From Paraprevotella clara YIT 11840 (GTDB lineage Bacteria; Bacteroidota; Bacteroidia; Bacteroidales; Bacteroidaceae): 64,000 nucleotides of DNA. The position numbers and the translations under genes were made by a program. The stretch lies in assembly GCF_000233955.1 (NCBI RefSeq), contig NZ_JH376593.1:1-64000 (forward strand). The letters run 5' to 3'. Under the pieces are notes generated by a model that was not told where the DNA came from, searched no databases, and saw only the letters and a list, made by a program, of their open reading frames with translations. Of the stretch, positions 37,691 to 61,783 are shown piece after piece (within the stretch, counting starts at the first letter, position 1; every line of letters begins with the position of its first letter).

Positions 37691-37756
37691 AATCAATCTC
37701 AGCCGAATGATTTTCCAATCTCAGCCAAACGATTTTTCGTTCGGCTGAGATTGATT
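37691..37756. repeat. CTCAGCC-family hairpin repeat, copy 2
   Basis: Perfect 17-bp arms (37691-37707 and 37740-37756; AATCAATCTCAGCCGAA and its complement) surround a further AATCTCAGCC copy at 37718-37727. It lies between convergent genes and could serve as a terminator. Confidence 0.85.
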
Positions 37757-37794
37757 TTCCGATTGGCGCAAGGTGATTTTCCCGCCTCCCGGTT

Positions 37795-41305: not shown

Positions 41306-41330
41306 ACCAATAGCAAACAAGCATCCATCG

Positions 41331-41395
41331 AAAATCGCGAGTAAGCGAGCGCAGACCGAGCCTGCTCGAGTCTGCCGAGCATGAGCGATTTATCC
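41331..41395 (+). repeat. Gene-end hairpin repeat, copy A
   Basis: A 65-base imperfect hairpin with outer arms AAATCGC/GCGATTT and inner arms GCAGACCGAGC / GCTCGAGTCTGC. It begins 25 bases after cysE and ends 15 bases before the methyltransferase ATG, in the direction of both genes. Related copies: 48711, 53582 and 56286. Confidence 0.85.
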
Positions 41396-41410
41396 AACAA
41401 AACTTACACA

Positions 41411-42937
41411 ATGGAAACTGAATTTGAACTCATCGCCAAAACCTTCCAGGGATTAGAGAATGTTTTGGCCAAAGAGCTGACCGACTTAGGAGCAAACAAC
41501 ATCCAGACCGGACGCCGAATGGTGTCTTTCACCGGCGACAAGGAACTCATGTATCGGGCCAACTTTGCCCTGCGTACGGCCATCCGCATCCTTAAACCTA
41601 TCAAGCATTTCAAGGCGGAATCTGCCGATCAGGTTTATGATGCCGTCAAGGCCATCGACTGGAATCAGTATCTGAACAATGAAACCAGCTTTGCCGTAGA
41701 CTCTGTGGTCTTTTCCCAAGAGTTCCGTCACAGTAAGTTTGTGGCCTATAAGGTAAAGGATGCCATTGTGGATTACTTCCGCGAGAAAACCGGTTCGCGC
41801 CCCAACATCAGCGTGACTCATCCGGACTTGCAACTGAATATCCATATTGCAGAAAACGACTGTACGCTGTCGTTAGACAGTTCCGGTGAATCGTTGCACC
41901 GGCGCGGCTACAGGCAGGAAGCCGTGGAAGCCCCGTTGAACGAGGTATTGGCCGCCGGCATGATCCTGATGACGGGCTGGGACGGCGAATGCGACCTGAT
42001 AGACCCGATGTGCGGTTCGGGAACGATAGCCATCGAAGCGGCACTTATCGCCCGCGGCATCGCACCGGGCGTATTCCGCAAGGAATATGCTTTCGAGAAA
42101 TGGCCTGACTTCGACAAGGAGATGTTTGACCGGATTTACAACGACGAGTCGCAAGAACGTGAATTCACACATAAGATCTATGGTTACGACATTAACCGCA
42201 ACGCCGTAGACATCGCCACACGGAATGTCAAAGCTGCCGGACTGAGCAAAGAGATCGAAATAGCCCAGCAAGATTTCCACAAGTTTACGCAACCGGCCGA
42301 GAAAAGCATCATCATCACCAATCCGCCGTATGGCGAACGTATCTCCACGCCCGACTTGTTGGGGCTGTACCGGACCATCGGCGAACGGCTGAAACACCAG
42401 TTCCTGGACAACGATGCCTGGATTCTGAGTTACCGCGAAGAATGTTTCGACCAGATAGGCTTGAAACCTTCCATCAAAATACCTTTGTACAACGGTTCGT
42501 TGGAATGCGAGTTCCGCAAATACCAAATATTCAGTGGAAAATACAAGGAACTACGCGCTGAAGGCAAGGAAATCAAAACCGACGAAGAGCGTCGGCAAAT
42601 GGCGGAAAAACGACGTTTCAAGATGCACCGCGAGTTTAAAAGGGCCATTGATGACGATGAAGAAGACTTCACCCCCAGAAGAAGGGATTACGACGACCGC
42701 AACGGCCGGCCGCGCGGAGGTCATTCTTTCGACCGCCGTCCACGGGAAGACCGTGAGGACAGAGGAGGGTCATACGAAAAACGACCGTTTAAACGCGAAG
42801 GAAAACCTTTCGAACGCAGAGAACGCTCGTTCGAACGCAAAAACAAGCCGTTCGAACGCGAGCGGAAACCTTTTGACCGCGAACGGAAACCATTCGGAAA
42901 AAACCGTAAATTCGACCGCTATGACGAAGAGGATTAA
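41411..42937 (+). CDS. THUMP-domain class I RNA methyltransferase (RlmL N-half type)
   Basis: A 508-residue SAM-dependent methyltransferase. The N-terminal THUMP domain (about 45-155) binds RNA; the catalytic part shows DPMCGSGTIAIEAALIARG (SAM loop) and NPPYGERI (target-base motif), as in the guanine-N2 half of RlmL. The last 80 residues are Arg/Lys-rich with repeated FERERKPF-type units, probably an RNA-binding tail. The ATG at 41411 (METEFELIAK) is the family start; ten upstream codons come from the hairpin repeat. Its end overlaps the next gene by 17 bases. Confidence 0.93.
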   Translation: METEFELIAKTFQGLENVLAKELTDLGANNIQTGRRMVSFTGDKELMYRANFALRTAIRILKPIKHFKAESADQVYDAVKAIDWNQYLNNETSFAVDSVVFSQEFRHSKFVAYKVKDAIVDYFREKTGSRPNISVTHPDLQLNIHIAENDCTLSLDSSGESLHRRGYRQEAVEAPLNEVLAAGMILMTGWDGECDLIDPMCGSGTIAIEAALIARGIAPGVFRKEYAFEKWPDFDKEMFDRIYNDESQEREFTHKIYGYDINRNAVDIATRNVKAAGLSKEIEIAQQDFHKFTQPAEKSIIITNPPYGERISTPDLLGLYRTIGERLKHQFLDNDAWILSYREECFDQIGLKPSIKIPLYNGSLECEFRKYQIFSGKYKELRAEGKEIKTDEERRQMAEKRRFKMHREFKRAIDDDEEDFTPRRRDYDDRNGRPRGGHSFDRRPREDREDRGGSYEKRPFKREGKPFERRERSFERKNKPFERERKPFDRERKPFGKNRKFDRYDEED

Positions 42938-45161
42938 TCTTTTCATAATGGTTTCACTTCTGTCCGTCCTCGCCATGGCACAAGGAAAAAAGAGCTTTAC
43001 GTTGGATGATTTGCTTCCGGGAGGAAGTACGTACCATCAATTACAGCCCCAGAACCTGTACACGGCTTGGTGGGGTAACCGGTTGGTAGAAACGGACTTG
43101 GACGGCTGCAATGAGATAAACCCCAAGAACGGAAGCAAGAAGGTGCTGTTCACCTTACAGCAACTGAACCAATGGCTGGGAGCCGGGGAAGACTCATCGG
43201 TCGTGCGGAGCTGCTACAATGTGGAGTTCCCCGATGGCGGACAACCATGGGTAGCCACCGTCGTTTCCGGGAAAGGAAAAAACGGAGGTAAACCGACCTC
43301 CATATACACTGTAGTAGACTTCAAATCGGGAAAGAAGGTATGGGAACAGGAATATCCGGCGGATGCCACGGCATTGGACCGCTCCCCGTCTTCCAATAGC
43401 CTGGCTTTCGTGCGGCAACACAACCTATATGTCACGACGAAAGAGGGGCAAACGATGGCCGTGTCTTCCGATGGCAGCAACGACTTGGTGTATGGAGAAA
43501 CCGTACATCGTAACGAGTTCGGCATTACCAAAGGAACATTTTGGAGTCCGGACGGGAAACAACTCGCTTTCTATCGGATGGACCAAAGCATGGTGCCCGA
43601 CTATCCGCAAGTAGATATCACGACACGCATAGCCACCACTTATCCTTGCAAATATCCGATGGCAGGAGAAAAAATGCACAAAGTGACGGTGGGTGTCTTT
43701 ACGCCGGCCACAGGCCGGACGGTATGGTTGCAAGCAGGAGATCCCACCGACCGTTATTTCACGAACATTTCCTGGAGCCCGGATAACCGGAAAATATACA
43801 TGATTGAACTGAACCGCGACCAAAACCGTGCGGAACTGGTTCGTTACGATGCGGCTACGGGCAAAAAGGAGGGTGTGATATACGAAGAGGAGCATCCCAA
43901 ATACGTGGAACCGATGCACGGCCTGCTGTTCCTGCCATGGGACAGTTCTAAGTTTATTTATCAAAGTCAACGGGACGGTTACAACCATCTCTATTTGTTC
44001 GACCTGTCCAAACCGCAGGCTCCACAACGACATAAGACATTTCAGGGCGGCGCGTGCGAAGAGCATGTCGAAGTCACCCCGTTGACCTCCGGCGAATGGG
44101 TGGTGAAAGAAGTTTTGGGCTTTGACCTGAAAGAAAAAAGCCTGCTTTTTTGCAGCAACGAAATCCATCCGTTGCAGTCCAATATATATAAGGTACGCGT
44201 AAAGGACGGCAAACGTACCCTTTTGGACAACGGCGAAGGCGTACATTACGGTAGCGTGAATGCAGACGGCACTTACGTAGAAGACCGTTACTCTTCCCCC
44301 ACCGTGGCGCGCAGCATCAGCCTGACAGACACCCGGAACGGGAAAGGCTGTAACTTGTTGACTGCCGAAGACCCATGGAAAGACTATAACGTGCCGGAAA
44401 TCACATGCGGTAGCATCAAAGCCGCCGACGGCACCACCGACCTCTATTACCGGATGGTGAAACCCGTGGATTTCGACCCGAATAAGAAATATCCTACCGT
44501 AATCTACGTGTACGGCGGGCCGCACGCTCACAACGTAGAGGCGAGCCGGAATTATCTGGCACGCGGTTGGGAAATCTATATGGCACAGAAAGGTTACCTG
44601 CTGTTCATCCTCGACAACCGAGGTTCGGAACATCGGGGACTGGCTTTCGAGAACGTTACCTTCCGGCATCTGGGCATAGAAGAAATGAAAGACCAGATGG
44701 AAGGCGTAAAGTTCCTGAAATCATTGCCCTACGTCGATGTCGACCGGATGGGTGTGCACGGATGGTCGTTCGGCGGTTTCATGACCACCAACCTCATGCT
44801 GACTTATCCCGACGTATTCAAGGCCGGTGTGGCCGGAGGTCCTGTCGTCGATTGGCAATACTACGAAGTGATGTACGGCGAGCGTTATATGGACCGTCCG
44901 CAAGACAATCCCGAAGGCTACAAAGGCAGTAACCTGAGACTCAAAGCCGGTAACCTGAAAGGCAAACTCCAAGTCATCATCGGTTACAACGACCCGGTGT
45001 GCGTCCCGCAACACTCCCTGTCGTTCCTGCGTGCCTGCATCGACGCGGGTACCCAACCGGATTTCTTCACTTATCCGGGCGATGAACATAACATGATGGG
45101 AAAGGACCGCGTACACCTGCACGAACGCATCACGCAATATTTTGAAGACTATTTGAAATAA
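42921..45161 (+). CDS. Dipeptidyl peptidase IV (S9B family), exported
   Basis: A 746-residue serine peptidase that removes X-Pro/X-Ala dipeptides. It has a signal peptide (about 1-20), a beta-propeller (about 60-480) and an alpha/beta-hydrolase domain with the triad S616 (GWSFGG), D691 (YNDPV) and H723 (DEHNM). The start at 42921 gives a basic N-terminus plus signal; it overlaps the methyltransferase stop. The longer open frame upstream is out of frame with the methyltransferase tail and not coding. It is followed 12 bases later by purD. Confidence 0.95.
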   Translation: MTKRINLFIMVSLLSVLAMAQGKKSFTLDDLLPGGSTYHQLQPQNLYTAWWGNRLVETDLDGCNEINPKNGSKKVLFTLQQLNQWLGAGEDSSVVRSCYNVEFPDGGQPWVATVVSGKGKNGGKPTSIYTVVDFKSGKKVWEQEYPADATALDRSPSSNSLAFVRQHNLYVTTKEGQTMAVSSDGSNDLVYGETVHRNEFGITKGTFWSPDGKQLAFYRMDQSMVPDYPQVDITTRIATTYPCKYPMAGEKMHKVTVGVFTPATGRTVWLQAGDPTDRYFTNISWSPDNRKIYMIELNRDQNRAELVRYDAATGKKEGVIYEEEHPKYVEPMHGLLFLPWDSSKFIYQSQRDGYNHLYLFDLSKPQAPQRHKTFQGGACEEHVEVTPLTSGEWVVKEVLGFDLKEKSLLFCSNEIHPLQSNIYKVRVKDGKRTLLDNGEGVHYGSVNADGTYVEDRYSSPTVARSISLTDTRNGKGCNLLTAEDPWKDYNVPEITCGSIKAADGTTDLYYRMVKPVDFDPNKKYPTVIYVYGGPHAHNVEASRNYLARGWEIYMAQKGYLLFILDNRGSEHRGLAFENVTFRHLGIEEMKDQMEGVKFLKSLPYVDVDRMGVHGWSFGGFMTTNLMLTYPDVFKAGVAGGPVVDWQYYEVMYGERYMDRPQDNPEGYKGSNLRLKAGNLKGKLQVIIGYNDPVCVPQHSLSFLRACIDAGTQPDFFTYPGDEHNMMGKDRVHLHERITQYFEDYLK

Positions 45162-45173
45162 AAACAATCGGAT

Positions 45174-46442
45174 ATGAAGATATTACTGTTAGGCAGCGGA
45201 GGGCGCGAACACGCTCTGGCCTGGAAAATCGCCCAAAGCAAGAAAGTAGACCAACTGTACATCGCACCCGGAAATGCGGGTACGGGCAGTGTGGGGGAAA
45301 ACGTACCGCTCAAAGCCGATGATTTTGAAGGCATCAGGCAATTTGTCCTCAGCAAAGGCGTGGACATGGTGGTAGTCGGCCCGGAAGATCCCTTGGTCAA
45401 AGGAGTGTATGATTTCTTCAAGAACGACAACCAACTGAAAGACATCCCTGTCATCGGTCCGTCCAAACAGGGAGCCGTACTGGAGGGAAGTAAAGATTTC
45501 GCCAAGGCATTCATGCAACGCCATGGCATACCGACAGCCGCCTACCGTACGTTCACGGGGGAGACGTTGGAAGAAGGCCTGAAATTTTTGGAAACCCTGA
45601 AAGCTCCTTACGTACTGAAAGCCGACGGACTTTGCGCAGGCAAAGGCGTGCTCATCCTGCCGACATTGGAAGAAGCCCGCAAGGAACTGAAAGAAATGCT
45701 GGGCGGCATGTTCGGCACGGCCTCCTCGTCGGTGGTCATCGAGGAATTCCTCAGCGGAATCGAATGTTCCGTATTCGTGCTGACAGACGGACGGAACTAC
45801 AAAATCCTGCCGGAGGCTAAAGATTACAAACGTATCGGAGAACATGACACCGGTCTGAACACCGGCGGCATGGGGAGTGTGTCTCCCGTCCCGTTCGCTA
45901 CCCCGGAATGGATGCGGAAAGTCGAAGACCGCATCATCCGCCCCACGGTGGAGGGACTGGCCGAAGAGGGCATCGACTACAAGGGCTTTATCTTCTTCGG
46001 ACTAATCAACGTGGAAGGCGAACCGATGGTCATTGAATACAATGTACGCATGGGCGACCCAGAAACCGAAAGTGTCATGCTTCGTGTGAAGAGCGATCTG
46101 GTAGAGCTTTTGGAAGGCGTGGCACAGGGCGACCTCGACCGACGGACACTGGAAATCGACGAACGCAGTGCCGTATGTGTCATGCTGGTATCCGGCGGGT
46201 ACCCCGAAGCATACGAAAAAGGATTCCCCATCACGGGTATCGAAGACGTACAGGACAGCATCGTCTTCCATGCCGGCACGGCTTTGAAGGACGGACAGGT
46301 GGTTACAGCCGGTGGACGGGTCATCGCAGTCAGCTCTTACGGACAGGATAAGGAAGAAGCCTTGAAGCAATCTTTCAGCCAGGCGCAGAAAATCCGGTTC
46401 GAGAAGAAATATTTCCGTTCCGACATCGGTCAAGACTTATAA
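45174..46442 (+). CDS. purD: Phosphoribosylamine-glycine ligase
   Basis: PurD joins glycine to phosphoribosylamine in purine synthesis. The 422-residue ATP-grasp enzyme has the N-terminal [15 protein letters not shown], the [11 protein letters not shown] loop, and [10 protein letters not shown] and [10 protein letters not shown] metal-site motifs. Length is standard. It is in the middle of a dense operon between DPP4 and a membrane protein (4-base gap). Confidence 0.97.
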
Positions 46443-46446
46443 GGAA

Positions 46447-47394
46447 ATGAGACGGAACAGATTCCAGAACAAGGTGGCTACGAGTAATTTCACACTGCCC
46501 GTAGCCGCTTTTCTCACCACACTGCTGTGGTGTGCGGAAGGAATCTATACGCCCGACCGCATACTGGGTTGGGCCGTTTGCGGCCTGACGGCCTATTTTT
46601 GGGTAGAGACCAACAATGCCCATTCGCTCATCCGCATCCGCAGCCGGTTGACACCGGCCATTTACCTGTGGATGACGGGATGTATATTCAGCCTGCATCC
46701 TTTGCAAGACGGCTTAATCGTATCTTGCCTCATGCTGGCGTCCTATTATCTGTTGTTCAAATCCTATCAGCGCACGGAAGCCGTAAGCCCTATCTTTCAC
46801 TCGTTTCTCTGTCTCGGCATCGGCAGTCTGTTTTTCCCGCAACTGCTTTTTTTCGCCCCATTTTATCTTTGGTATGCCACAGTCTACCTCCGTTCGCTGA
46901 CATGGCGTACGTTCTGGGCGGCCATGACGGGCTTGATTCTCCCTTACTGGTTCATGGCCGGATATTTCCTTTATACGGAAGACTTCAGCCGGTTCATCGG
47001 ACATTTCCGGGAACTCATCCTCTTCCAACCGATACATTATGAGAATTACCGGAATCTCGATTTTTTGCAAATCAGTACCATAGGACTGGTGGCGGTATTT
47101 ACCTTTATAGCCGCACAGCATTGCATACGCACCAGTTTCAACGACAAGATACGCACACGGATGTTCCTGTATCTCATTCTCACCCAAGAGTTACTTATCG
47201 CACTGTTCATGGCCCTGCAACCCGTACATTTCCAAGTACTGCTCGGTCTGTTGGTCATGAACTCCGCTCCCATCCTATCCCATTACTTTGCTCTGACAGG
47301 CAGCCGGTTTACTCGTGCGGTGTTCGTGCTGTTCCTGTTCATGTTTGCAGCCTTATCTTTTCTGAACGTATGGACGCAGTGGTTGACTTTCTGA
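46447..47394 (+). CDS. Multi-pass membrane protein of unknown function
   Basis: A 315-residue protein with about eight to nine hydrophobic segments, typical of a family conserved in Bacteroidota whose function is not established. No catalytic motif is visible. Its 3' end overlaps the next gene by 25 bases, so the two are translationally linked. Confidence 0.75.
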   Translation: MRRNRFQNKVATSNFTLPVAAFLTTLLWCAEGIYTPDRILGWAVCGLTAYFWVETNNAHSLIRIRSRLTPAIYLWMTGCIFSLHPLQDGLIVSCLMLASYYLLFKSYQRTEAVSPIFHSFLCLGIGSLFFPQLLFFAPFYLWYATVYLRSLTWRTFWAAMTGLILPYWFMAGYFLYTEDFSRFIGHFRELILFQPIHYENYRNLDFLQISTIGLVAVFTFIAAQHCIRTSFNDKIRTRMFLYLILTQELLIALFMALQPVHFQVLLGLLVMNSAPILSHYFALTGSRFTRAVFVLFLFMFAALSFLNVWTQWLTF

Positions 47395-47822
47395 TACAGT
47401 ACGGCTATTGGGGCATGTTTCTGGCTGCTTTTCTGGCTGCCAGCATATTCCCGTTCAGCTCCGAGGCCGTCATGGTCGGCCTGCAACTGGCCGGTCTGGA
47501 TCCGGTCATGCTATTGGTGTGGGGCACCGTAGGCAACGTGGGCGGCAGCATGTTCAATTACTGTTTAGGGCGGCTCGGCCGCATGGAATGGATAGAAAAA
47601 TACTTGCACGTGAAGCGGGAAAGCGTGGAGAAAGCGCAACATTGGATGGAACGTAAAGGCGCTTGGGTGGGCGGTGTCCTATGTGTGGTCCCCGTCATCG
47701 GCGATGCCATTTCCGTGGCATTGGGTTTCATGCGTGCCAACTGGCTGATATGCCTGATTTCCATTACGATCGGGAAACTGGTACGTTATGCCATTTTAGT
47801 CTATACCGTCACTTTATTTTAA
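47370..47822 (+). CDS. YqaA/DedA-like (SNARE-associated) membrane protein
   Basis: A 150-residue inner-membrane protein with four hydrophobic segments. The glycine-rich motifs (GNVGGSMFNYCLGRLG and the later VVPVIGDAISVALGF) are typical of the short YqaA branch of the DedA/VTT superfamily, whose members scramble or flip lipids. The ATG at 47370 lies inside the previous gene. The stop overlaps the next start as TAATG. Confidence 0.88.
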   Translation: MDAVVDFLIQYGYWGMFLAAFLAASIFPFSSEAVMVGLQLAGLDPVMLLVWGTVGNVGGSMFNYCLGRLGRMEWIEKYLHVKRESVEKAQHWMERKGAWVGGVLCVVPVIGDAISVALGFMRANWLICLISITIGKLVRYAILVYTVTLF

Positions 47823-48709
47823 TGAAAATGAAATTACGACCCTTCCTGTTTTACCTATGGGCATGTCTTTGCCTTCTCGCCGGATGCAAGCCGTCCGGCC
47901 GTACAGACAACAAAGACACGCAGCGACCGATGATCACTGTATCTATCGAACCGCTGCGCTACATTACGGAACGCATTGCAGGCGATGGGTTCCGCATAGA
48001 AACCTTCGTACCGAAAGGCAGCAGCCCCGAGACCTACGAGCCTACTCCCGAACAGATGATGAAACTCGGGCAAAGTCTGGTCTACTTCACGGTCGGCGAT
48101 TTAGGTTTTGAACGTACTTGGACAGACCGGCTCCGGCAAATGTCCCCCGAAGTCCCGTTCGTCCGGACTTCGGAAGGCATCAAGCTCATAGAGGGACATC
48201 ATCACGGCTCATCCGACACACCGGAAAACGAAACCGACCCGCACGTATGGACTTCACCGGTCCACATGAAGACCATCGCACAAAACATCTGTGCCTCGCT
48301 CTGCAAGCTCGACACGGCACACGCCCGGCAATTCCGCCGGAACCTGCAACAGACACTGGCCGACCTGCAAGCTACGGAAGACAGCATCCACACGCTCGTA
48401 GACAGCCTACCCTCCAAAGCTTTCCTCATCTACCACCCCACGCTCACCTACTTCGCACAGGATTACGGCCTCACGCAAATCGCCATAGAAACCGACGGTA
48501 AAGAACCTTCCCCGGCACAACTCGTCCGGCTCATCCGGCTTTGCAAAGAAAAACAGGTCCGTACCATTTTCGTCCAACAGGAATTCGACCGGAGAAATGC
48601 GGAACTCATTGCCAAAGAAACCGGCACGCACCTCGTAGACATCAACCCCCTGTCATACGAGTGGAAAGAAGAAATGCTGAAAATAGCCCGTACACTACAC
48701 GCACAATGA
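47822..48709 (+). CDS. znuA: Zinc/metal ABC transporter substrate-binding lipoprotein
   Basis: A 295-residue solute-binding protein of the cluster-9 metal family, anchored by a lipobox (LLAGC). Metal ligands fit the His-rich loop EGHHHGSS, DPHVWTSP and IYHPTLTYFAQDYG. The likely metal is zinc, with manganese possible. It overlaps the upstream gene by one base and the ATPase gene by four. No permease gene is between or beside them. Confidence 0.9.
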   Translation: MKMKLRPFLFYLWACLCLLAGCKPSGRTDNKDTQRPMITVSIEPLRYITERIAGDGFRIETFVPKGSSPETYEPTPEQMMKLGQSLVYFTVGDLGFERTWTDRLRQMSPEVPFVRTSEGIKLIEGHHHGSSDTPENETDPHVWTSPVHMKTIAQNICASLCKLDTAHARQFRRNLQQTLADLQATEDSIHTLVDSLPSKAFLIYHPTLTYFAQDYGLTQIAIETDGKEPSPAQLVRLIRLCKEKQVRTIFVQQEFDRRNAELIAKETGTHLVDINPLSYEWKEEMLKIARTLHAQ

Positions 48710-49530
48710 AAATCGAAATGAAGAGAGAGCAGACCGAGTCTTGTTCGAGTCTGCCGAGCGGGGGCGATTTATCCAAAGAGCCCCTTATACAATTAAACCG
48801 GATCCAGGTAGGATATGACGGAAAACAAGTCCTGCGAGACATCGACCTGACGGTGTACACCCATGACTTTTTGGGTGTCATCGGCCCGAACGGCGGGGGA
48901 AAGACCACTTTAATCAAAACGATTCTCGGATTGAAAAAACCGATGTCCGGGACAGTCACCTTCTTCCGTGAAGGCCGCCCCGTCCCCTCCGTCCGCATGG
49001 GCTATCTGCCCCAATACAACAAAATAGACAAGAACTTCCCCATCTCGGTCTACGAAGTCGTGCTGTCGGGACTGCGGAAAAGCTTTTGGAAGCGTTATTC
49101 CAAGGCACAGCACCAAGCCACGCGGAACATGCTCTGCCGTATGGGGCTGGACACATTGGCCGACCGTCCGATAGGTAGTCTCAGCGGCGGCCAATTGCAA
49201 CGTGCCCTGCTCGGCCGGGCCATCATATCGCAACCGGATGTGGTCATACTGGATGAACCCAATACTTATATAGACAAGCGGTTCGAAACGCAACTCTATC
49301 AACAATTAGAAGAAATCAACCGCGAAAGTGCCATCATCCTGGTCAGCCACGACTTGGGTTCGGTACTCCAGAATGTACGTACCATCGCCTGTGTCAACGA
49401 GACCCTCGACTACCATCCGGACACGGAACTGCCGGAAGGCTGGCTCGAAGACAAGTTCAACTGCCCCATCGATTTGGTAGGACACGGCAACTATCCTCAC
49501 CGTGTATTAAAATGTCACAAACATAGTTAA
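48706..49530 (+). CDS. znuC: Zinc ABC transporter ATPase with repeat-derived N-terminus
   Basis: A 274-residue ABC ATPase with Walker A GPNGGGKTT (60-68), signature LSGGQLQRAL, Walker B VVILDEP and the switch His (SHDLG). It pairs with the overlapping binding-protein gene. Residues about 3-24 (REQTESCSSLPSGGDLSKE) are translated from a copy of the gene-end hairpin repeat (48711-48775); the ABC fold itself begins near residue 27. The coupled ATG at 48706 requires reading through the repeat unless an internal start is used, and none is obvious. Confidence 0.9.
   Translation: MKIEMKREQTESCSSLPSGGDLSKEPLIQLNRIQVGYDGKQVLRDIDLTVYTHDFLGVIGPNGGGKTTLIKTILGLKKPMSGTVTFFREGRPVPSVRMGYLPQYNKIDKNFPISVYEVVLSGLRKSFWKRYSKAQHQATRNMLCRMGLDTLADRPIGSLSGGQLQRALLGRAIISQPDVVILDEPNTYIDKRFETQLYQQLEEINRESAIILVSHDLGSVLQNVRTIACVNETLDYHPDTELPEGWLEDKFNCPIDLVGHGNYPHRVLKCHKHS
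48711..48775 (+). repeat. Gene-end hairpin repeat, copy B (translated)
   Basis: Same family as copy A: GCAGACCGAGTC ... TTCGAGTCTGCCGAGC ... GCGATTTATCC. It starts just after the znuA stop and is in frame within the start of znuC. Confidence 0.85.
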
Positions 49531-49588
49531 AACGGCCGACAAACCTTTTAAAGTTCGGAAAAGAGCCGTACAGAAAGGAAAAAGTTAC

Positions 49589-49596
49589 TAATTTTG
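49589..49596 (+). promoter_or_regulatory. -7 box of the GT117 gene
   Basis: TAATTTTG, 41 bases before the ATG. No TTTG at the -33 position. Confidence 0.45.
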
Positions 49597-49637
49597 CAAC
49601 TCAACCGATAAGAACAAAATCAAATAACAGCAAAACA

Positions 49638-52600
49638 ATGAAACAGTTCAAACTTGTAAACACTCTTTTGGGATGGATTACATTTGCTATTGCCGCGTGG
49701 GTTTACTGTTCCACCATTGAACCGACCGCAAGTTTCTGGGACTGTCCGGAGTTTATCACTACCGGCTATAAACTGGAAGTAGGACACCCGCCCGGTGCAC
49801 CTTTCTTCATGCTTACGGCTAACTTATTCTCGCAATTTACCAGCGACCCTTCGCAAGTGGCCCTGATGGTCAACACGATGTCGGCGTTGATGAGTGCCGG
49901 TTGTATCCTGTTCCTTTTCTGGAGCATCACGCACCTGACGCGCAAACTGGTATGTAGCGACTACGACCAGATGACAACTGCCAAGTTGATTACCATCGAA
50001 GGAAGCGGTTTGGTGGGCGCGTTGGTCTATACTTTTAGCGACACATTCTGGTTCAGTGCCGTAGAAGGTGAGGTTTACGCTTATTCATCCTTATTTACGG
50101 CATTGGTGTTCTGGCTCATTCTGAAATGGGAAGAACATGCCGACGAGCCTCACAGCGACCGTTGGCTCGTGCTGATTGCCTACCTGACGGGGCTTTCCAT
50201 CGGCGTGCATTTGCTGAACTTATTGTGCTTGCCGGCCATCGTACTCATTTGGTATTACAAGAAAAATCCCAATGCCAACCTGAAAGGTTCACTTTGGGCT
50301 TTGGTGGCTTCCTTTATTCTGGTAGCCGCCGTACTGTACGGCATCGTACCGGGCATCGTGAAAGTAGGAGGATGGTTCGAGCTGTTCTTCGTCAACACTT
50401 TGGGACTTCCGTTTAACACCGGCCTCATTTTCTACATTTTCTGCCTGATAGCCACCGTACTTTGGGCTATCCGCGAAACGCTTATCCAGAAAAGCCGTCG
50501 CCGCATGAATATCGCTTATCTGGTATCCGTAGGCATGTTGGGTATTCCCTTCTACGGATACGGATGGAGCAGTTTCATCATCGGAGTCATCGTCTTAGGC
50601 ATTTTAGCTTTCGTCCTCAGCCGAAAGGTACAGGGAAAACCGCTCATCAGCCCCCGCGTCATGAACACCTCATTGCTTTGCATGCTGATGATCATGATCG
50701 GATATTCCACATACGCCGTCATCGTCATCCGTTCCACGGCAAATCCACCGATGGATCAAAATTCACCGGAGGACATCTTCACGTTGGGACAATACCTGAA
50801 CCGTGAACAATACGGTAGCCGTCCGTTGTTCTACGGGCAGGCCTACACTTCGAAAGTTCAGTTAGAGACCAAAGACGGCTACTGCATGCCGGAATATAAA
50901 GAAGGGGCACCGATTTACCAACGCGTAGAAAAACATAGTGCCGACGAGAAGGACGCTTATCGCATAGTGTATTACGACAAAGAACCTATCTATGCACAAA
51001 ACATGGTGTTCCCGCGTATGTATTCCGACCGCCCCGAGCACGTCAGGGCTTACGAAGACTGGATGGGCGGCGTGGAAGGCAAGCAAGTACCTTACGACCA
51101 ATGCGGACAAATGGTAATGGTAAAGGTACCGACGCAAGCCGAAAACCTGCGCTTCTTCTTCAGTTACCAGATAAACTTCATGTACTGGCGGTATTTCATG
51201 TGGAATTTTGCCGGCCGCCAGAACGACATACAGGGTAATGGCGAATTGGAACACGGTAACTGGCTGACCGGAATTCCGTTCATCGACAATGCCCGTCTGG
51301 GCGACCAAAGCAAACTGCCCACTGAACTGAAAGAGAACAAGGGACATAATGTATTCTACTGCCTACCCCTGTTGTTGGGTCTCATCGGACTCTTCTGGCA
51401 GGCTTATAAGAACCAAGAAGGCGTACGCCAGTTCTGGGTCGTCTTCTTCCTGTTCTTCATGACCGGTCTGGCCATTGTGGTCTACCTCAACCAGACACCA
51501 TTGCAGCCGCGTGAACGTGATTATGCTTACGCCGGTTCGTTCTATGCCTTCGCCATTTGGGTAGGTATGGGCGTAGCCGCCATCGTAGACGGACTGAAAC
51601 GTCTCAAAGTGCCGGAAACCGCAGCCTCCTTAGTCAGTCTGCTCGCCTTGCTTGTCCCCATACAAATGGCCGGACAGACGTGGGACGACCACGACCGCAG
51701 CGGACGCTACACCTGCCGCGACTTCGGACAGAACTACCTGAACTCCATGGACGCCAAGGGCAATCCGGTGATCTTCACCAACGGTGACAACGACACCTTC
51801 CCGTTGTGGTATAACCAGGAAACGGAAGGCGTGCGTACCGATGCCCGTGTCTGCAACTTGAGTTACCTGCAAACCGACTGGTATATCGACCAGATGCGCC
51901 GTCCGGCCTACGACTCGCCGTCGTTGCCCATCAGTTGGACCCGTCTGCAATACGTCACCGGCACGCGCGAAGGCATCCCCGTGCAGCCCGATGCCCTCCA
52001 GCAAGTCATCGACTATTACAAAGACAGTCCGGAAGACCTGAAACAGATGTTGGGCGACAACCCGTACGAGTTGAAGAACATCATCCGGCACTGGGTCTTG
52101 AACGACAACCCGGACTTGCAAATCTTCCCGACCGACAGTATCGTAGTGACAGTGGACAAGGAAGCCGTGAAACGCTCCGGCATGATGATTGCCGCTGATT
52201 CCATTCCCGATGTGATGCACATCTCACTCAAAGGCAAACGCGCCGTCTACAAGAGTGAAATGATGATGCTGGAAATGATTTCGCAGGCCAACTGGGAACG
52301 CCCGCTCTACATGTCTACGACAGTAGGTCCCGACAATTACGGACATCTGGGCGACAACTTCGTACAGGAAGGCCTTGCCTGCCGCATCACGCCGTTCGAC
52401 ACCAAACAGAGCGGCCGCACCATCGACAGCGAAAGAATGTACAACAACATGATGAACAAGTTCAAATACGGCGGATTGAAAGAGAATCCGGACATTTACC
52501 TCGACGAGACCGTGATACGCATGTGCTACACACACCGTCGCCTCTTCAACCAACTGGCCCAACAGTTGTTAAAAGAAGGACAGAAAGATAAGGCATTGAA

Positions 52601-52949
52601 AGTGTTGCAACGGGCCGAAGAAGAAATCCCGGGCAGCATCGTCCCGCACGAAGCCTTTTACGGCCATTCGCTCGAACTGGCTGACGCCTGGCTGGCATTA
52701 GGCCATAAGGCCGAAGCCGAGAAACTGCTTAACGCTGTAGGACAGAATGCAAGGGAATATATAGAATGGTATTTAAGCCTGAATACCCAGCGCCTGTTGC
52801 AATCATCGAGAGAGTGTCTGATGCAGATATACATACTGAACGATATCGCCAAGACATGGGAACCTATAGACAAGAAAAAAGCGGAGACCTATCGCATGGA
52901 AGTGAACAACTATGCTTCACGTTGCCACCAGAGAGGCATGAGCTTGTAA
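49638..52949 (+). CDS. GT117 / DUF2723 membrane glycosyltransferase
   Basis: A 1103-residue protein: about twelve membrane segments in the N-terminal 700 residues, with an early acidic loop (SFWDCPEFITTGYKLEVGHPPG) typical of DUF2723, then a soluble C-terminal region that ends in TPR-like helices (about 960-1090). The family is related to GT-C mannosyltransferases such as TMEM260 and is near universal in Bacteroidota, where a role in O-glycosylation of exported proteins is suspected. The donor and acceptor are not known from sequence. A deacetylase follows 25 bases later. Confidence 0.9.
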   Translation: MKQFKLVNTLLGWITFAIAAWVYCSTIEPTASFWDCPEFITTGYKLEVGHPPGAPFFMLTANLFSQFTSDPSQVALMVNTMSALMSAGCILFLFWSITHLTRKLVCSDYDQMTTAKLITIEGSGLVGALVYTFSDTFWFSAVEGEVYAYSSLFTALVFWLILKWEEHADEPHSDRWLVLIAYLTGLSIGVHLLNLLCLPAIVLIWYYKKNPNANLKGSLWALVASFILVAAVLYGIVPGIVKVGGWFELFFVNTLGLPFNTGLIFYIFCLIATVLWAIRETLIQKSRRRMNIAYLVSVGMLGIPFYGYGWSSFIIGVIVLGILAFVLSRKVQGKPLISPRVMNTSLLCMLMIMIGYSTYAVIVIRSTANPPMDQNSPEDIFTLGQYLNREQYGSRPLFYGQAYTSKVQLETKDGYCMPEYKEGAPIYQRVEKHSADEKDAYRIVYYDKEPIYAQNMVFPRMYSDRPEHVRAYEDWMGGVEGKQVPYDQCGQMVMVKVPTQAENLRFFFSYQINFMYWRYFMWNFAGRQNDIQGNGELEHGNWLTGIPFIDNARLGDQSKLPTELKENKGHNVFYCLPLLLGLIGLFWQAYKNQEGVRQFWVVFFLFFMTGLAIVVYLNQTPLQPRERDYAYAGSFYAFAIWVGMGVAAIVDGLKRLKVPETAASLVSLLALLVPIQMAGQTWDDHDRSGRYTCRDFGQNYLNSMDAKGNPVIFTNGDNDTFPLWYNQETEGVRTDARVCNLSYLQTDWYIDQMRRPAYDSPSLPISWTRLQYVTGTREGIPVQPDALQQVIDYYKDSPEDLKQMLGDNPYELKNIIRHWVLNDNPDLQIFPTDSIVVTVDKEAVKRSGMMIAADSIPDVMHISLKGKRAVYKSEMMMLEMISQANWERPLYMSTTVGPDNYGHLGDNFVQEGLACRITPFDTKQSGRTIDSERMYNNMMNKFKYGGLKENPDIYLDETVIRMCYTHRRLFNQLAQQLLKEGQKDKALKVLQRAEEEIPGSIVPHEAFYGHSLELADAWLALGHKAEAEKLLNAVGQNAREYIEWYLSLNTQRLLQSSRECLMQIYILNDIAKTWEPIDKKKAETYRMEVNNYASRCHQRGMSL

Positions 52950-52974
52950 TCCTGTCTGAAACCCGAAGAGACCC

Positions 52975-53595
52975 ATGTTCATAGAACAACCCGCAGTCTT
53001 TCTCCGATGGCTCTATCCGACCGCGATATGGCGGATGAGCCGCAAGAAGAAAGTAGTCTATCTGACATTCGATGACGGACCGATACCCGAAGCCACCCCG
53101 TTTGTGCTGGACATATTGGACAGGTTCGGTGTCAAGGCCACTTTCTTCATGGTGGGAGACAACGTGCGCAAGTATCCCGACATCTACCGTATGGTCGTCG
53201 AACGCGGGCACTGCGTCGGCAACCATACGTTCAACCACATCGGCGGCTTCCGCCATTCGAGCGAAGAATATCTGGAGAATGCCGACAAGGCTAACCGCCT
53301 GCTGCATACCAACCTCTTCCGCCCGCCTCACGGTTGGATGCGATTGCTGCAATTCAAACTGCTGCGCAAGCACTACCGCATCATCATGTGGGATTTGGTC
53401 ACGCGCGACTACAGTAAAAGGGTGACGGCGGAGGACGTGGTAAACAACGTGAAACGCTATGCGCGCAACGGTTCCATCATCACGTTCCACGACTCGCTGA
53501 AAAGCATCGACAAGCTGCAAACAGCTTTGCCCGAAGCCCTGCAATGGCTGAAAGACCAGGGATATGCTTTCAAGGTGATAGAAAATCGCGAGTAA
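52975..53595 (+). CDS. Polysaccharide deacetylase (NodB/CE4 family)
   Basis: A 206-residue metal-dependent deacetylase with the first motif TFDDGP (31-36), the zinc motif HTFNH (H84, H88) and the R-P-P-H-G substrate motif. No signal peptide is seen, only a short hydrophobic start, so its site of action is unclear. Its last four residues and stop codon (ENRE, stop) are supplied by the beginning of hairpin repeat copy C. Confidence 0.92.
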   Translation: MFIEQPAVFLRWLYPTAIWRMSRKKKVVYLTFDDGPIPEATPFVLDILDRFGVKATFFMVGDNVRKYPDIYRMVVERGHCVGNHTFNHIGGFRHSSEEYLENADKANRLLHTNLFRPPHGWMRLLQFKLLRKHYRIIMWDLVTRDYSKRVTAEDVVNNVKRYARNGSIITFHDSLKSIDKLQTALPEALQWLKDQGYAFKVIENRE

Positions 53596-53675
53596 GTATA
53601 TCTAATGGCAAAAACGCGAGTAAGTGAGCGCAGGCCGAACTTGTTCAGTGTCTGCCGAGCGTGAGCGATTTATGC
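53582..53675 (+). repeat. Gene-end hairpin repeat, copy C (partly duplicated)
   Basis: A first partial unit (AAAATCGCGAGTAAG, from 53582) contains the stop codon of the deacetylase gene; a second, full unit (about 53610-53675) carries GAGCGCAGGCCGAAC ... GTCTGCCGAGCG ... GAGCGATTTAT. Same orientation as the upstream gene. Confidence 0.85.
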
Positions 53676-53684
53676 AAATAACGG

Positions 53685-54641
53685 ATGGTAAAAACAGAAA
53701 ACATACTTTCTGCCACTCAAATAAAAGCCGAGGCCGCACGCCTCGGCTTTTCTGCTTGCGGACTGGCCCCGGCCGAACCGGTCGCCCCTCTGCACGCCGC
53801 TTTCTTCAAACGCTGGCTCGGCGAAGGACGGCAGGCCGGTATGGCTTACATGGAAGGGCATGAAGCCAAACGGCTCGACCCTCGCCTCCTCGTGGAAGGA
53901 TGCCGGACAGTGGTCAGCGTAGCCCTGAACTACCGCCCGTCCACGCCCATCCCGGACCATAAACTGCAAATCGCCTGGTATGCTTACGGACAAGACTACC
54001 ACGACATCATGCGGCAGAAGCTGAACAGCCTGCTCGAAGCCCTGCGGCACAGTACGCCGGAAGGCACCTTACAAGGCCGCGCCTTCTGCGACACAGCACC
54101 GGTACTGGAACGTTATTGGGCCTGGCGGTGCGGCTTGGGGTGGATAGGCCGTCACACCCAACTCGTCATCCCCCGGGCGGGCAGTGCATTCTTCCTCGGC
54201 GAACTGATGCTCAACCTGCCTGCGGATGCCTACGATGCGCCTTTCCCCACCGACCGTTGCGGCACTTGCCGCCGTTGTATCGAAGCCTGCCCCACACAGG
54301 CCTTGGAAGAAGGACGCGGACTGGATGCCCGCCGCTGCCTGAGCTACCTGACCATCGAGAACCGGGGCGGGATTCCCGAAGAGGCGGCTGCCCGGATGTA
54401 TCCTTATTTCTACGGTTGCGACCGTTGCCTGCGTGCCTGTCCTCACTTGCGTTCCGCGCCTCCCGCCACGGAACCGGCCTTCACTCCCCGTCCCGAACTG
54501 CGGCAAATGGAGGAGGAGGACTGGATGGGATTGGACGTGGAGCGTTATCGGATGCTCTTCAAAGGCTCTGCCGTGAAACGGGCGAAATACGAGGGCCTCA
54601 TCCGCAACCTGAAAGCACTGCGCGGCAACGGGGATAGATAA
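53685..54641 (+). CDS. queG: Epoxyqueuosine reductase
   Basis: QueG makes the last step of tRNA queuosine synthesis, reducing epoxyqueuosine with cobalamin and two [4Fe-4S] clusters. The 318-residue protein has both cluster motifs (CGTCRRCIEACPT at about 186-198 and CDRCLRACPH at about 247-256), the latter preceded by YPYFYG. It starts ten bases after repeat copy C and is the last gene before a long spacer. Confidence 0.96.
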   Translation: MVKTENILSATQIKAEAARLGFSACGLAPAEPVAPLHAAFFKRWLGEGRQAGMAYMEGHEAKRLDPRLLVEGCRTVVSVALNYRPSTPIPDHKLQIAWYAYGQDYHDIMRQKLNSLLEALRHSTPEGTLQGRAFCDTAPVLERYWAWRCGLGWIGRHTQLVIPRAGSAFFLGELMLNLPADAYDAPFPTDRCGTCRRCIEACPTQALEEGRGLDARRCLSYLTIENRGGIPEEAAARMYPYFYGCDRCLRACPHLRSAPPATEPAFTPRPELRQMEEEDWMGLDVERYRMLFKGSAVKRAKYEGLIRNLKALRGNGDR

Positions 54642-54658
54642 AAATATATTCCGGGTTC

Positions 54659-54796
54659 GACAAAAGAACAAAGGAATACAAGTATTAATGGCGTGAGCGG
54701 AGGAAAATCTGGTTTTTGAATTGGACAGAAGAACAAAAGAACAGAAGTTTTAATGGCGGGCAGAATTGAAAAAATTTGTTCTTTTGTTCTTCTGTC
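54659..54796. repeat. Inverted repeat with 20-bp perfect arms and a related upstream direct copy
   Basis: Arms at 54724-54743 (begins GACAGAAGAACAAAAG) and 54777-54796 are perfect complements with a 33-base loop. A degenerate direct copy of the left arm plus about 20 bases (GACAAAAGAACAAAGG ... TTAATGGCG) begins at 54659. No transposase is present. Confidence 0.8.
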
Positions 54797-55172
54797 TAAA
54801 AAACAAATCTGCAAACGCCATTCTGACAATCTGTCAATCCAACACCCTTAGGATTCCATTTTTGGATACAGCGATACACACGGACGAAAAAACACGATTC
54901 TCGCATGCCTTGCAAAATCCTTTATGTCGCTCGTTTCCCTCCTTACGCTTACTTCCTGCATACAAAGCCATTATCCCGGGCGCAAGCCGTTACACACCAC
55001 GTAAGCCCGGAGCCTTTCCGGCCAATCATCTTGTCACACGGATTGGAATAGGAACAGGCTTCCATCTAAAGAAAAAACAAGCCCTCGGAGCACACCTACG
55101 TACCGCCCGAAGCCGATTTTTCCAACGACATGCGGACAAACACAAAAAGTTCTGCGCAGAAAAAAAGTGTTT

Positions 55173-55204
55173 TTTCAGCCGAACGGAAAATCTTTCGGCT
55201 GAAA
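55173..55204. repeat. Short CTCAGCC-type hairpin, copy 3
   Basis: TTTCAGCCGAA (55173-55183) and TTCGGCTGAAA (55194-55204) with a loop like those of copies 1 and 2, then CTGATT. It lies between convergent genes. Confidence 0.65.
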
Positions 55205-55458
55205 CTGATTCCTAAAAATGCTTTAAGTATATAAAAAACGAGGCTGAAATGTGAATATATGTATTCAAAATAGCCTAAAAAACACACGGAACGTACTTTT
55301 TAGGCGACTTTTATCTCTCCAAAAATCGTCAAATCGCTTACATTCTGTCGGCATAAAGAGAGATTCCGACATCAAATGTCCAAAATCGGAAAAGACGCAC
55401 CAATCCTAAATGCTTCCCAATCATCCCCCAACGTTAGGACGACATGTTCCCCAAAATC

Positions 55459-56070
55459 TTAAAGACAAAACAAATAACCCACAGTCACCATGAGCGAACG
55501 GTTCGTGAAGTCATCCACTTTCTTATAGCAAGAATTCAGTCCCAACATATAACGCAAGCCGACGTTCACCCCACTGCGGGATTCCCATCCTCCCCCGAAC
55601 ACAAGCCCGACATCTACCGGCTGCCTCTCGCCTAAAAGGGAAGAAGGTTGACGGCTGTTACCGTACTTCAACGTCCGCCCCACCAAAAAACCGACTTGCA
55701 TGCCTGCATCCAAATGCACACCAAGGCCGGGATAAAACTTGGCCACCACAGGGATGTCGATATACTTGCTCTCCACTGCCACATCTTCCACCCTGTCCTT
55801 TATGATTTCATCACCGGGAATTATGACTCCATCGGATACGTTGTATCCCCTTGTCGTGTACATCAGATTGGCCTGCAAGCCCCACCGCTCACTCCAACGG
55901 TACATCCCCACCGCACCGATATTAAAACCGGTCATACGCTTGCCGCCCATCTCATACGAAGGAAACTTTACCGTGGACCAGTTTGCCCCCACTTCACAAC
56001 CCACATGCCATTGGGCAGAAACCATTCCGCTCAAACATAAACATATTCCTATTATAAAAAGTCGTTTCAT
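55459..56070 (-). CDS. Outer-membrane beta-barrel protein (PorT-like)
   Basis: A 203-residue exported protein: a signal peptide (about 1-20, ending VSAQ) and alternating amphipathic strands with aromatic turns, ending in VTVGYLFCL, as in small eight-stranded barrels. The ATG at 56070 (MKRLFIIGI) gives the signal peptide. No binding function can be assigned. It lies downstream of the large glycosidase gene, but separated from it by a terminator. Confidence 0.82.
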   Translation of the reverse strand: MKRLFIIGICLCLSGMVSAQWHVGCEVGANWSTVKFPSYEMGGKRMTGFNIGAVGMYRWSERWGLQANLMYTTRGYNVSDGVIIPGDEIIKDRVEDVAVESKYIDIPVVAKFYPGLGVHLDAGMQVGFLVGRTLKYGNSRQPSSLLGERQPVDVGLVFGGGWESRSGVNVGLRYMLGLNSCYKKVDDFTNRSLMVTVGYLFCL

Positions 56071-56154
56071 TCCATACTTTTTGATATAAAACAAACGATA
56101 ATTGTACGCAAATATTGTAAAGAAACAGCCAATCATCTCCAAGCTATAAAACCT

Positions 56155-56198
56155 AACAGGCTTCTAAAAGTTTTATCCCCAACTTTTAGAAGCCTGTT
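56155..56198 (-). terminator. Terminator of the GH51-GH43 gene
   Basis: Perfect 18-bp arms (56155-56172 and 56181-56198; AACAGGCTTCTAAAAGTT) with an eight-base loop, and a T-containing tail on the minus strand. Confidence 0.8.
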
Positions 56199-56285
56199 CG
56201 ATTTCATTTGGTTCCGGCCTTTATCTCCAGTCCGGCCATACCTTTTTTCTAAAAAGCAGAAGTCAATCCACCACGACTTTACATA

Positions 56286-56345
56286 ATTTGCTCACGCTCG
56301 GCAGACTTCGAGCAAGCTCGGTCTGCGCTCACTTAATCGCAAATT
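56286..56345 (-). repeat. Gene-end hairpin repeat, copy D
   Basis: On the minus strand: ...GCGATTAAGTGAGCGCAGACC, then GAGCTTGCTCGAAGTCTGCC and GAGCGTGAGC. The TGA stop of the glycosidase gene lies inside the repeat. Orientation matches the upstream gene, as in copies A-C. Confidence 0.85.
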
Positions 56346-59300
56346 TGCGCGTGCCCACGATATAAATCCCGTGCGGAAGTCCGTTCACGGCTTCATGCGG
56401 CATGACCGCACTGCGCACTTTCACGCCGCTCACGGTGTACACATCTACCGGAACCTCAGCCGAATCCGTCACTTCGCGAATGGCAGTCGGTTTGGCGACA
56501 TACAACAACTTGAAGTTGTCGAAACAGTTCCAGTCGTGGTACCTATACTCGGTCTTGTCCAGACCGACCCGCAAATCCCCTTTCGCCAATAACTCGTATT
56601 CCACTTCGTTGGCGCGGTATTCCCCGTCGCGGTTGAAGGCATCGTTGGCTGTCCATACATCATCGGGATAGGTATAGGGATTGTAAGTGTAGGGAGCGGA
56701 ACCGTCGAACAAAGACATGAACGTCTGGCGGCTGCTATTGAGATACAGTCCGGCCAAAAGCTGTTCCGAACCGTCCCGATGCGCGTCATAGGCTTCCGCC
56801 TTGTCTCCATAGCGATAAAAGCCTTGGGCGCGAAGGAGGTATGTACCGGCCGGCATACGTTCCAACACCTGATAAGTGTCGTAAGTCTTGTCGTAAAACT
56901 CAGCCACACCGGAAGAAGCCGCCGTAAAAGACGTGCCTTCCCATCCCTTGCTGCCTTCCGAAAAATCGGGATTGACTAAAAGCCAGGTAAGGTCTACTTC
57001 CTCTCCGGGTGTCCAACCGGCGCACAAGTCCTCCGTATAGGTTTCCACCGCCGCTTTCAGGGCCTCGTAGGCCGCAGGCAAAGCCATTGACAGTTCGGAC
57101 ACGGAGGTCAGGTCCAACGCTTCTTCGGCTTGCCGGATGGCGGCATCGAACACTTGGCTACCGCTCTCCTCCTTCAGATCCTCCACACGTGGCAGATACA
57201 AACGCACATCGCTCCATGCCTGCAACAGGCGGTACTCTTCTTCCGTCACCGTCATGACGGAACCGTGCTGGAACGCTCCGGTCCCTTCCACATTGGAGGA
57301 ATGCGTCACGTTCAATCCCAGATGGTCTGTCTCGCAATACTTGTAGGCACTGCCGCCGGAGTAGCGCATATAATACAGGTTGTACACGTCCTCATTGATG
57401 CGGCGCACCGTACTCGAACCTTCCACCTGTTCCGAACCTTCGTTCGTCACGTGCATCACTTCCGTCCAGGTACCTCCCACCAACGTCTTGCTCGTGGCCT
57501 CATAAATGCCCCGTTCCGTGCCCGAAGCCCCTTCACGTTTGTAATACATATGGTAGAGGCTGTCGTAAGGATTATACACGATGTCCGCGTCGATTACCGA
57601 GATTCCGGGGTCGAAAAAGACACGGGGTTGGGTCAGCGTCTTGAACTCCCGGTCGGCATAGGAATAAAAAATACGGTCGTGGTTGTCGCCTTCGTTGGTG
57701 GACAGTATAGAATAGTACACCAGATAGGCACCTTCTCCCCCGTTATAGTCCTTGTCCCAGATGAACTGCGGTGCCCATACACGGTTGATGCGGGCATATT
57801 CCTCGTCGGTGTCATATACGCCCGTCGTGACATCGGGGTCGGAGAAGATGGATTTTCCCCGGTTGAAGTCGAACGTCGTACCCTCCCAATGTATCAAATC
57901 CCGGGAACGTACCAAGTTGATGCCGTGGTTGTTCCACACGCCGGAAGCATGCTGTTTCATGTCGGTGGTTGTGATGAAATAGCCGTCCGGCGCTTCACCG
58001 CGCCCGATATAGGCATCACGCGTACCGTGTTCTATCTCCGCAATCTTCTCCGTGTCGAAGACTTCTCCCCCGTCCAGCAAAACGTTGAACACACGACCTT
58101 GGTCTTCTTTCGCGCCGAGTGCGAAGTTGGTGATTTCCTTTCCGGAATTCATGAAGCAGTACAAGTAACCGTAGCGGTTGTCATCGGGCGCCAATATCAC
58201 CGGATACTCCACTTCCACCGTATCGGCTTCGCAGCTCAGCTTGGCAGACAACACCCCGGCACGGACCGCCTCATCCCCTTGCGGCAAGCGGTGTACCACC
58301 AGTTTCTCGTTTTCTAAGGCGATGGCATCCTCATAACCCTGATTCACAGAAAAGAACCATCTTACGCCCACCCTATCGGAAATATTTTCGGGCAAATCCG
58401 TCGTGGCATGCAAGCAGTTGAACTTCTTCATAAACCGTGCCAGTTCTTCACGTGCGGCACTCATGTCCACTTCCCGCGACTCCGCCGCACGGCCTTGCAC
58501 CTGGGCGTAGAGTTCCTTCATCTGCCCTCCGTCCAAGGCCACGTCGTATATCTGGAAGTCGTCGAAGAACGCCTCCGTCATCAAGGCATCGGCGGCAAAA
58601 GGCGAACGCCCGATAAAAGCCTCCGTCAACTCCTGCGCCATGTCGGCCGGCCTTTGGGTCACTTGCTGCTCACTGGCCATGCGCCCGTCCACGTAGAGCC
58701 GCCCCATGTTCCCTTCTTGCACGTATGCAATGTGGTGCCACTCGCCGTAAGACAATCCCCCATGCGACGGGGCATCCGCGCTCTCCCCATCCTTGATGGT
58801 GTAATACCAGCCCGTGTTGTCCGGACTGTTGACCAAGCCGACGTACTGCTCCGTCCCGTTAGAAAACCCATACGCCCAGCAATATTGGTCCAAGGCACCT
58901 ACGCCGGGCAATGCGATGGCCACCGACATGGTATAGTCGCCCTCCAGCCCGGAAAAAGTTTGGCGTGCCATGTCCACGCCTAAATCAAAAAAACCTTGCT
59001 CTCCGTTACTGCCGGTATAAAGTGCCTTGTTTCCGTCGTCCATCGCCACGATGGCTGCCCCGCCGTGCAACTTTCCCGGGAATTTTCCCTTGTCGTCAGC
59101 CTCCTGCCCTCCGTCGAAAGAATACTGTATGAGCGGCTCCGGAAGCTCTGCCTTTTCCTCTACCACGATTTCCACGTCCCGCACATCCAGACGGAGAATA
59201 TTCAACGAATAGGCGGGCAGTTCGTAGGTGAACTGTTGTCCCTTCACATCCAACGCACGCTCCTTCGGCGACACGCGGTCGGGGTTCTCCAGATTGTTTT

Positions 59301-61768: not shown

Positions 61769-61783
61769 CAGTCGTAAATACAA

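Follow-up and report, generated by a model that had tools for sequence, protein, structure and literature searches.

The 64,000-nt stretch of Paraprevotella clara YIT 11840 analysed here (contig NZ_JH376593.1, positions 1 to 64,000 of the forward strand; "the window", GC content 50%) carries four copies of an imperfect hairpin within 15 kb, and raises the question of what such a repeat does next to genes. A reading made from the sequence alone had tied the copies to gene 3' ends, and had proposed either a transcript-level role, in termination or RNA 3'-end stability, or a mobile element that targets gene ends. We traced the repeat in the host genome, a 4.23-Mb draft of 165 contigs (G000), in a sister species (G025), and in other members of the Bacteroidales. 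We consider with good confidence that it is a non-autonomous mobile DNA palindrome of about 66 bp, which inserts at AAA or A-rich sites and is often read as 22 residues within genes. Recent insertion, size, AAA flanks, in-frame reading, the loss of a stop codon from frame 3 and the existence of covarying homologues throughout the order are each apparent when the sequences are compared.

The four related hairpins are all present in the window, copy C consisting of a full element and a 15-nt partial one:

41331-41397, plus strand: copy A, full element, between genes; the G025 site is also occupied.
48709-48776, plus strand: copy B, full element, codons 2-23 of an ABC ATPase gene; the G025 site is empty.
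48706-49530, plus strand: ABC-transporter ATPase gene with copy B at its N-terminus; the Pfam ABC_tran match covers residues 43-185, after the insert.
53582-53596, plus strand: copy C, partial, the first 15 nt of the element, from which the TAA stop of the open reading frame (ORF) 52975-53595 comes.
53610-53677, plus strand: copy C, full element, intergenic; G025 has no element in this region, and its upstream gene ends in TGA.
About 56275-56348, minus strand: copy D, full element, holding the stop of ORF 56329-61620 (minus strand); a tandem pair occupies the G025 site.

When copy A was used as a blastn query against the whole genome, it matched itself at E = 5e-29, copy C at 6.5e-15, copy D at 4.2e-14 and copy B at 3.3e-12, values that exclude chance similarity. 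The closeness to upstream stop codons was confirmed for copy A, which starts 26 nt past the stop of ORF 40409-41305, for copy D, which contains a stop, and for the partial copy C, which supplies one. For copy B the 3'-end description was accurate but incomplete: the copy overlaps the stop of the upstream gene, and the same 22 codons are codons 2-23 of the downstream ABC ATPase gene, which begins at the ATG at 48706 and is present in G025 without the insert.

The blastn search with copy A reached 27 places in the host genome, four of them partial matches. A covariance model (R1), built from an alignment of 25 copies (A1), returned 33 hits, 32 of them at E<1e-5, from the 150 of 1089 candidates that were scored. 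The core set used below comprises 31 copies; left out were L071, a diverged copy (E=5.6e-6) whose site also holds a copy in G025, and L072 (E=0.32), which is of a long-loop type. A typical copy reads AAAATCGCGAGTAAGCGAGCGCAGACCGAGCTTGCTCGAAGTCTGCCGAGCGGGAGCGATTTATCCAAA. The core of about 66 bp consists, in order, of a 5' outer arm, the conserved sequence GAnTAAGCGAGn, a variable inner hairpin, the conserved CCGAGCGnGA and a 3' outer arm. The outer stem (AAATCGC/GCGATTT, with a TTTGC/GCAAA form in five of the A1 copies) closes an internal loop formed by the two conserved sequences, one on each side, and the inner hairpin above this loop occurs in two main sequence types. In A1, both sides had changed in 5 of 13 pairs (five were reached in 12 of 500 shuffles), and there were 19 double-changed cells against 5.2 ± 1.7 in shuffles. 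Long-loop relatives of the element are present in the host and in other genera; their apical part is about 50 nt, and in L072 (2001-2089) the ends are of the CAAAGATAG...CTATCTT type, while L057 and L070b appear to be hybrids of the element and the long-loop type.

The evidence for mobility comes from comparison of occupied and empty sites. The covariance model identified copies in seven other genomes of the genus, with 17 in G025 and one to four in each of the rest. Twelve host sites, including those of copies A and D, are also occupied in G025 and account for 13 of its 17 copies because of the tandem pair at the copy D site. Twenty core copies have no partner in G025, and 16 of these were tested (all except L043, L046, L050 and L070b): 15 corresponded to contiguous empty sites, and one (L038) had a rearranged flank. 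The empty sites in the sister species identify the copies as insertions. At six sites (L028, L030, L035, L037, L045 and L052), between one and four species from farther out in the genus were also compared, and all were empty in each case, indicating that the change was a gain and not a loss. These comparisons support a mobile element with recent insertions, in agreement with that part of the sequence-only reading. The net insert, measured at 13 sites, was 66 bp in nine, 63 bp in two, 65 bp in one and 69 bp in one. Rather than gene ends, as the mobile-element proposal had it, the target in the empty sites is AAA or A-rich, and AAA is found on both sides of the insert. In a lysyl-tRNA-synthetase-like gene, for example, G025 has GATTGCT-AAA-ATATAA, where the host has GATTGCC-AAA-ATCGCG...TTATCC-AAA-ATATAA. 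Such flanks fit either a 3-bp target duplication or insertion beside AAA by an element that itself ends in AAA. No clear long duplication was seen at the insertion sites.

We classified the 31 copies ourselves from reading frames, orthologues and Pfam matches. By position, the 3' ends of genes account for 11, the 5' ends for 9 and gene interiors for 8, and the other 3 are elsewhere between genes; the tie to 3' ends seen in the window is therefore not a property of the element genome-wide. By reading, 19 are sense read-through copies (15 in frame 1 and 4 in frame 3), one is antisense (L055, at the N-terminus of a lipoprotein-like gene), five supply a stop codon, and six are outside genes. Frame 1, which begins K-I-A-S-K-R-A-Q, is an open and hydrophilic sense frame (KIASKRAQTELARSLPSGSDLS). 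Frame 3 normally contains a stop codon. All four copies with read-through in frame 3 have lost it, three having TTA and one CAA in its place, while 26 of the 27 others retain a stop there (Fisher p=1.6e-4). A single gene carries two of the four as a tandem pair; with the pair counted once, p=0.001. Loss of the stop where the frame is used is evidence of translational selection.

Orientation is likewise non-random: by the same classification, 24 of the 25 gene-associated copies are in the sense direction (p=1.5e-6 against one half). In a simulation, the element was inserted at every AAA or TTT of 44 ORFs of the window; 53% of the insertions that stayed open were expected to be sense and 67% in frame 1. 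The plain read-through copies numbered 15 sense to one antisense (p=7e-4), and frame 1 was used in 15 of 15 (p=0.002). The 22-residue peptides are presumably made within the host proteins, for which the loss of the frame-3 stop is indirect evidence.

Thirteen of the read-through proteins gave Pfam matches: an ABC-2 permease, a DEAD-box helicase, a bacterial topoisomerase, an outer-membrane efflux protein, a class II (D/K/N) tRNA synthetase, a UvrD helicase, two radical-SAM proteins, an ABC ATPase, an AAA-type helicase with three insertions, a YceG-like protein, a lysylphosphatidylglycerol-synthase-like protein and a transglycosylase. For 11 of these proteins, no insert falls in a best Pfam stretch as reported; the two inserts within one are L056 (AAA_12 of the AAA-type helicase) and L038 (DUF3362 of a radical-SAM protein). 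The read-through proteins of L045, L046 and L048 had no Pfam match at 1e-5; the scan covered every read-through protein except that of L043. A glycosyltransferase-28 protein, MurG by our reading, and a SusD protein both end in the element. A helicase-like gene at L070 (host contig 21, 3095-6709) contains three in-frame copies, two of them in tandem. The copies that survive are found chiefly at the ends of proteins, in linkers and between domains.

A scheme that would produce this distribution is as follows. The element would insert at AAA or A-rich sites, leaving AAA on both sides. Since 66 nt equals 22 codons and the sense frame is open and hydrophilic, an insertion within a gene could leave a working protein with 22 additional residues. 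Purifying selection would then leave copies at termini, in linkers and between domains, which would account for the apparent tie to gene ends.

The element is not confined to Paraprevotella. A pattern made from the core matched at least 118 stretches in a collection of 84,980 species genomes, and all 118 titles listed name organisms that we take to be members of the Bacteroidales; among the matches listed are Prevotella, Alistipes, Tidjanibacter, Rikenellaceae, Muribaculaceae, Paludibacteraceae, Coprobacter, Bacteroides and others. The core was also present in 18 stretches of a viral-contig collection. The matches listed from both collections yielded 134 distinct copies after removal of exact duplicates and of copies less than 60 bases from the end of a locus. 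Over the five pairs counted, the outer stem of these copies showed 90% Watson-Crick pairing, made up of many pair types, compared to 43% (maximum 51%) when the partners were shuffled; the pattern itself covered only the 3' base of the last pair of this stem. Among the 134, 64 copies with distinct arms, none from the host genome, made up a second alignment (A2). Here 12 of 17 pairs had changed on both sides, and the count of double-changed cells was 233, whereas shuffles gave 65 ± 10 and slid controls no more than 61. The stems thus covary in A1 and A2 alike, a pattern that the sequence-only reading had proposed to look for.

A model built from A2 alone (R2), with copies from other genera only, found 26 copies in the host genome. 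In a phylum-wide sample of 198 genomes, which is not broken down by order, the host was the only one that it matched; within the order it matched 54 of 295 genomes, in 39 of 184 genera. The R2 copy counts are lower bounds, because scoring was limited to 26 candidates per genome in the phylum sample and 17 in the order. Fourteen copies from elsewhere in the order were viewed closely; each is in frame within an ORF of 120 codons or more and starts with K-R-(E or G)-Q-. Proteins of ten of them were scanned against Pfam, and seven had matches, including a CTP synthase (with the insert within the GATase stretch), an M28 peptidase, a WecG-type glycosyltransferase, a relaxase, and a MutS-domain protein on a viral contig. 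Named plasmids or phages were rejected as carriers: blastn with copy A found no match in them, though 18 viral-contig stretches hold the core. In other genera (L096-L212), a second short hairpin, e.g., GACC-GnA-GGTC, often lies 3' of the element. Hairpin stems there exceed shuffled controls, and 7-base direct repeats such as AATGGTC surround some copies.

Several observations weigh against the picture of a mobile palindrome that is often read within genes. The classification of the 31 host copies used no gene caller, and no mobilising enzyme turned up. A crude count of ORFs at the host loci gave 11 sense-only (9.6 expected), 9 with both strands open (15.8), 5 antisense-only (2.1) and 6 with none (3.6), so that by this measure the host copies are not enriched in open frames. 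Across the order, the copies avoid ORFs, with 86 of the 134 in none compared to 25 expected, and the strand bias is slight (17 in sense-only and 13 in antisense-only ORFs). Blastn missed the element in all 20 relatives searched, of which 12 belong to the same genus, although the covariance model does find copies in seven other genomes of the genus. Finally, in the outer stem of A2 taken alone, the G.U share of non-Watson-Crick cells was slightly above the shuffled expectation (26% vs 21%).

If the hairpin acted in RNA, G.U pairs would be tolerated and A.C would not. Over all A2 stems, G.U made up 21% of the non-Watson-Crick cells, compared to 24% expected by shuffling, and in the apical stem 13% compared to 28%; G.T/T.G cells (14) were about as frequent as A.C/C.A cells (15). 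The lack of a preference for G.U over A.C implies a constraint that is symmetrical between the strands, as for DNA hairpins or cruciforms, and points to pairing as a constraint on DNA rather than RNA. This bears directly on the proposal of a terminator, or an mRNA 3'-end stabiliser, spread by selection. The stability of the hairpin, the sense orientation of nearly all gene-associated copies and the 11 copies at gene 3' ends are what such a signal would show, but as many as 19 copies are within frames that are read through, and 9 are at 5' ends. A scan of 40500-57500 for terminator-like sites found none that coincides with the four window copies and no T-run terminator there, and no Rfam family matched the element, either in the window at the gathering threshold or with copy A at E up to 1. 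On the combined strength of the terminator scan, Rfam, the G.U data and the copy positions, we rejected a terminator or RNA 3'-end signal, and regard a transcript-level role as very improbable.

The remaining alternatives concern the kind of mobile element. One is a repetitive extragenic palindromic (REP) element moved by a REP-associated tyrosine transposase (RAYT; Y1, IS200/IS605-like), which would recognise the single-stranded hairpin and insert it beside a short target. An imperfect palindrome with conserved unpaired letters, insertion beside AAA with no clear long duplication, tandem copies and DNA-type covariation all agree with this, but the searches for the enzyme speak against it: no Y1_Tnp (RAYT-type) domain was found in the host genome by a search whose control was positive in 5 of 14 named genomes, a Y1 gene occurs in only 2 of 13 element-bearing genomes (host included) and in none of the other 11, and the 3-kb loci around those two Y1 genes contain no element core. 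REPs are defined by GTAG or CGTC end tags, and Bacteroidetes are among the phyla with CGTC-tagged repeats, according to PMC3733652; such tags were not noticed in A1 or A2, where no dedicated search for them was made. The Y1 searches make a RAYT-driven REP unlikely. Marginally less doubtful is a miniature inverted-repeat transposable element (MITE) of an ordinary DDE-type insertion sequence, with AAA as its 3-bp target duplication. The small palindrome, the AAA on both sides and the clean insertion are as expected for a MITE. However, the ends should stay constant if a transposase read them as terminal repeats, whereas here the terminal arms vary freely yet stay complementary and the fixed letters are internal; nor was a parent element seen, though no systematic search for one was made. 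In genome G486, two inverted copies separated by about 2 kb suggested a possible parent transposon, but proved to belong to an inverted pair of hsdS-like genes. At this locus (L270), the element copies (1531-1595 and 3549-3613) are at the N-termini of the two genes, with an integrase-like gene alongside; the pair are presumably expressed and silent type I restriction specificity genes (hsdS) of a phase-variable-like locus. For the mobile palindrome that we favour, the stems may be read as folded single-stranded DNA by a putative enzyme acting in trans, and the conserved unpaired letters would be its likely recognition site, by analogy with REP/RAYT and IS200/IS605 systems.

The closest known kinds are the Rickettsia palindromic element (RPE), its Wolbachia counterpart (WPE) and the coding palindromes of Methanocaldococcus jannaschii. 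As described in PMC2996958, PMC3767692 and PMC10969869, these insert in frame into unrelated genes, conserved ones among them, without breaking them, and the peptides sit in exposed or unstructured segments. The present element works in the same way, as a dispersed palindrome read in frame within unrelated genes (19 of 31 copies read through, varied Pfam families), and the insert is missing from orthologues elsewhere (in G025 at 15 of 16 sites, six of which are empty in outgroups as well). It differs from RPE in its length (about 66 bp vs 100-150 bp), its phylum (free-living or gut-type Bacteroidales), its recent insertions with empty sister-species sites and its order-wide structural core, and presumably also in sequence. 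It resembles REP/RAYT systems in being a small imperfect hairpin with tandem copies and likely recognition at the DNA level, but differs in that no Y1 gene is found in the host or in 11 of the 13 element-bearing genomes and that many copies are intragenic. BrickBuilt and the other MITEs of Porphyromonas gingivalis, a member of the Bacteroidales, are likewise small mobile elements, and were set apart by description only. BrickBuilt differs in being reported as strictly intergenic (PMC10969869). The coding palindromes of Nematomorpha mitochondria are also inverted repeats within protein-coding genes, but are from animal mitochondria and are perfect repeats of up to 284 bp (PMC6649704). The literature searched, which included few subscription papers, described no Bacteroidales element of the present kind.

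The review PMC10969869 calls the contribution of coding palindromes such as RPEs unexplored. The present element offers a way into how RPE-like palindromes move and how proteins tolerate them. Laboratory genetics is available for the order Bacteroidales. With recent insertions, empty sister sites and a family in many Bacteroidales, both the mobilising enzyme and the effects on proteins can be tested directly. We see an even balance for and against the broader proposal, in which the order-wide family would consist of structure-recognised mobile DNA hairpins, moved by a non-Y1 enzyme and inserting at AAA, in some lineages largely via coding genes, to which they would add a standard 22-residue hydrophilic segment. 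If so, this would be a second, independent RPE-like system of protein diversification, in bacteria that can be grown and engineered. For annotation, this element may lie behind shifted gene ends and internal "indels" in Bacteroidales, and labelling its hairpin as a terminator would be a mistake.

The window holds other structured sequences. Just past copy D, at 56155-56198, there is a strong 18-bp stem with T-rich tails on both sides, likely a bidirectional terminator separate from the element. A SAM-II riboswitch is found at 61780-61839 (plus strand; 54 bits, full length). Another dispersed hairpin repeat (CAATCTCAGCC...GGCTGAGATTG) occurs on both strands, at 19540-19591, 37694-37767 and 55170-55221. 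Inside an ORF, at 42780-42901, five overlapping copies of a repeat spaced by 21 bp encode a basic repetitive stretch.

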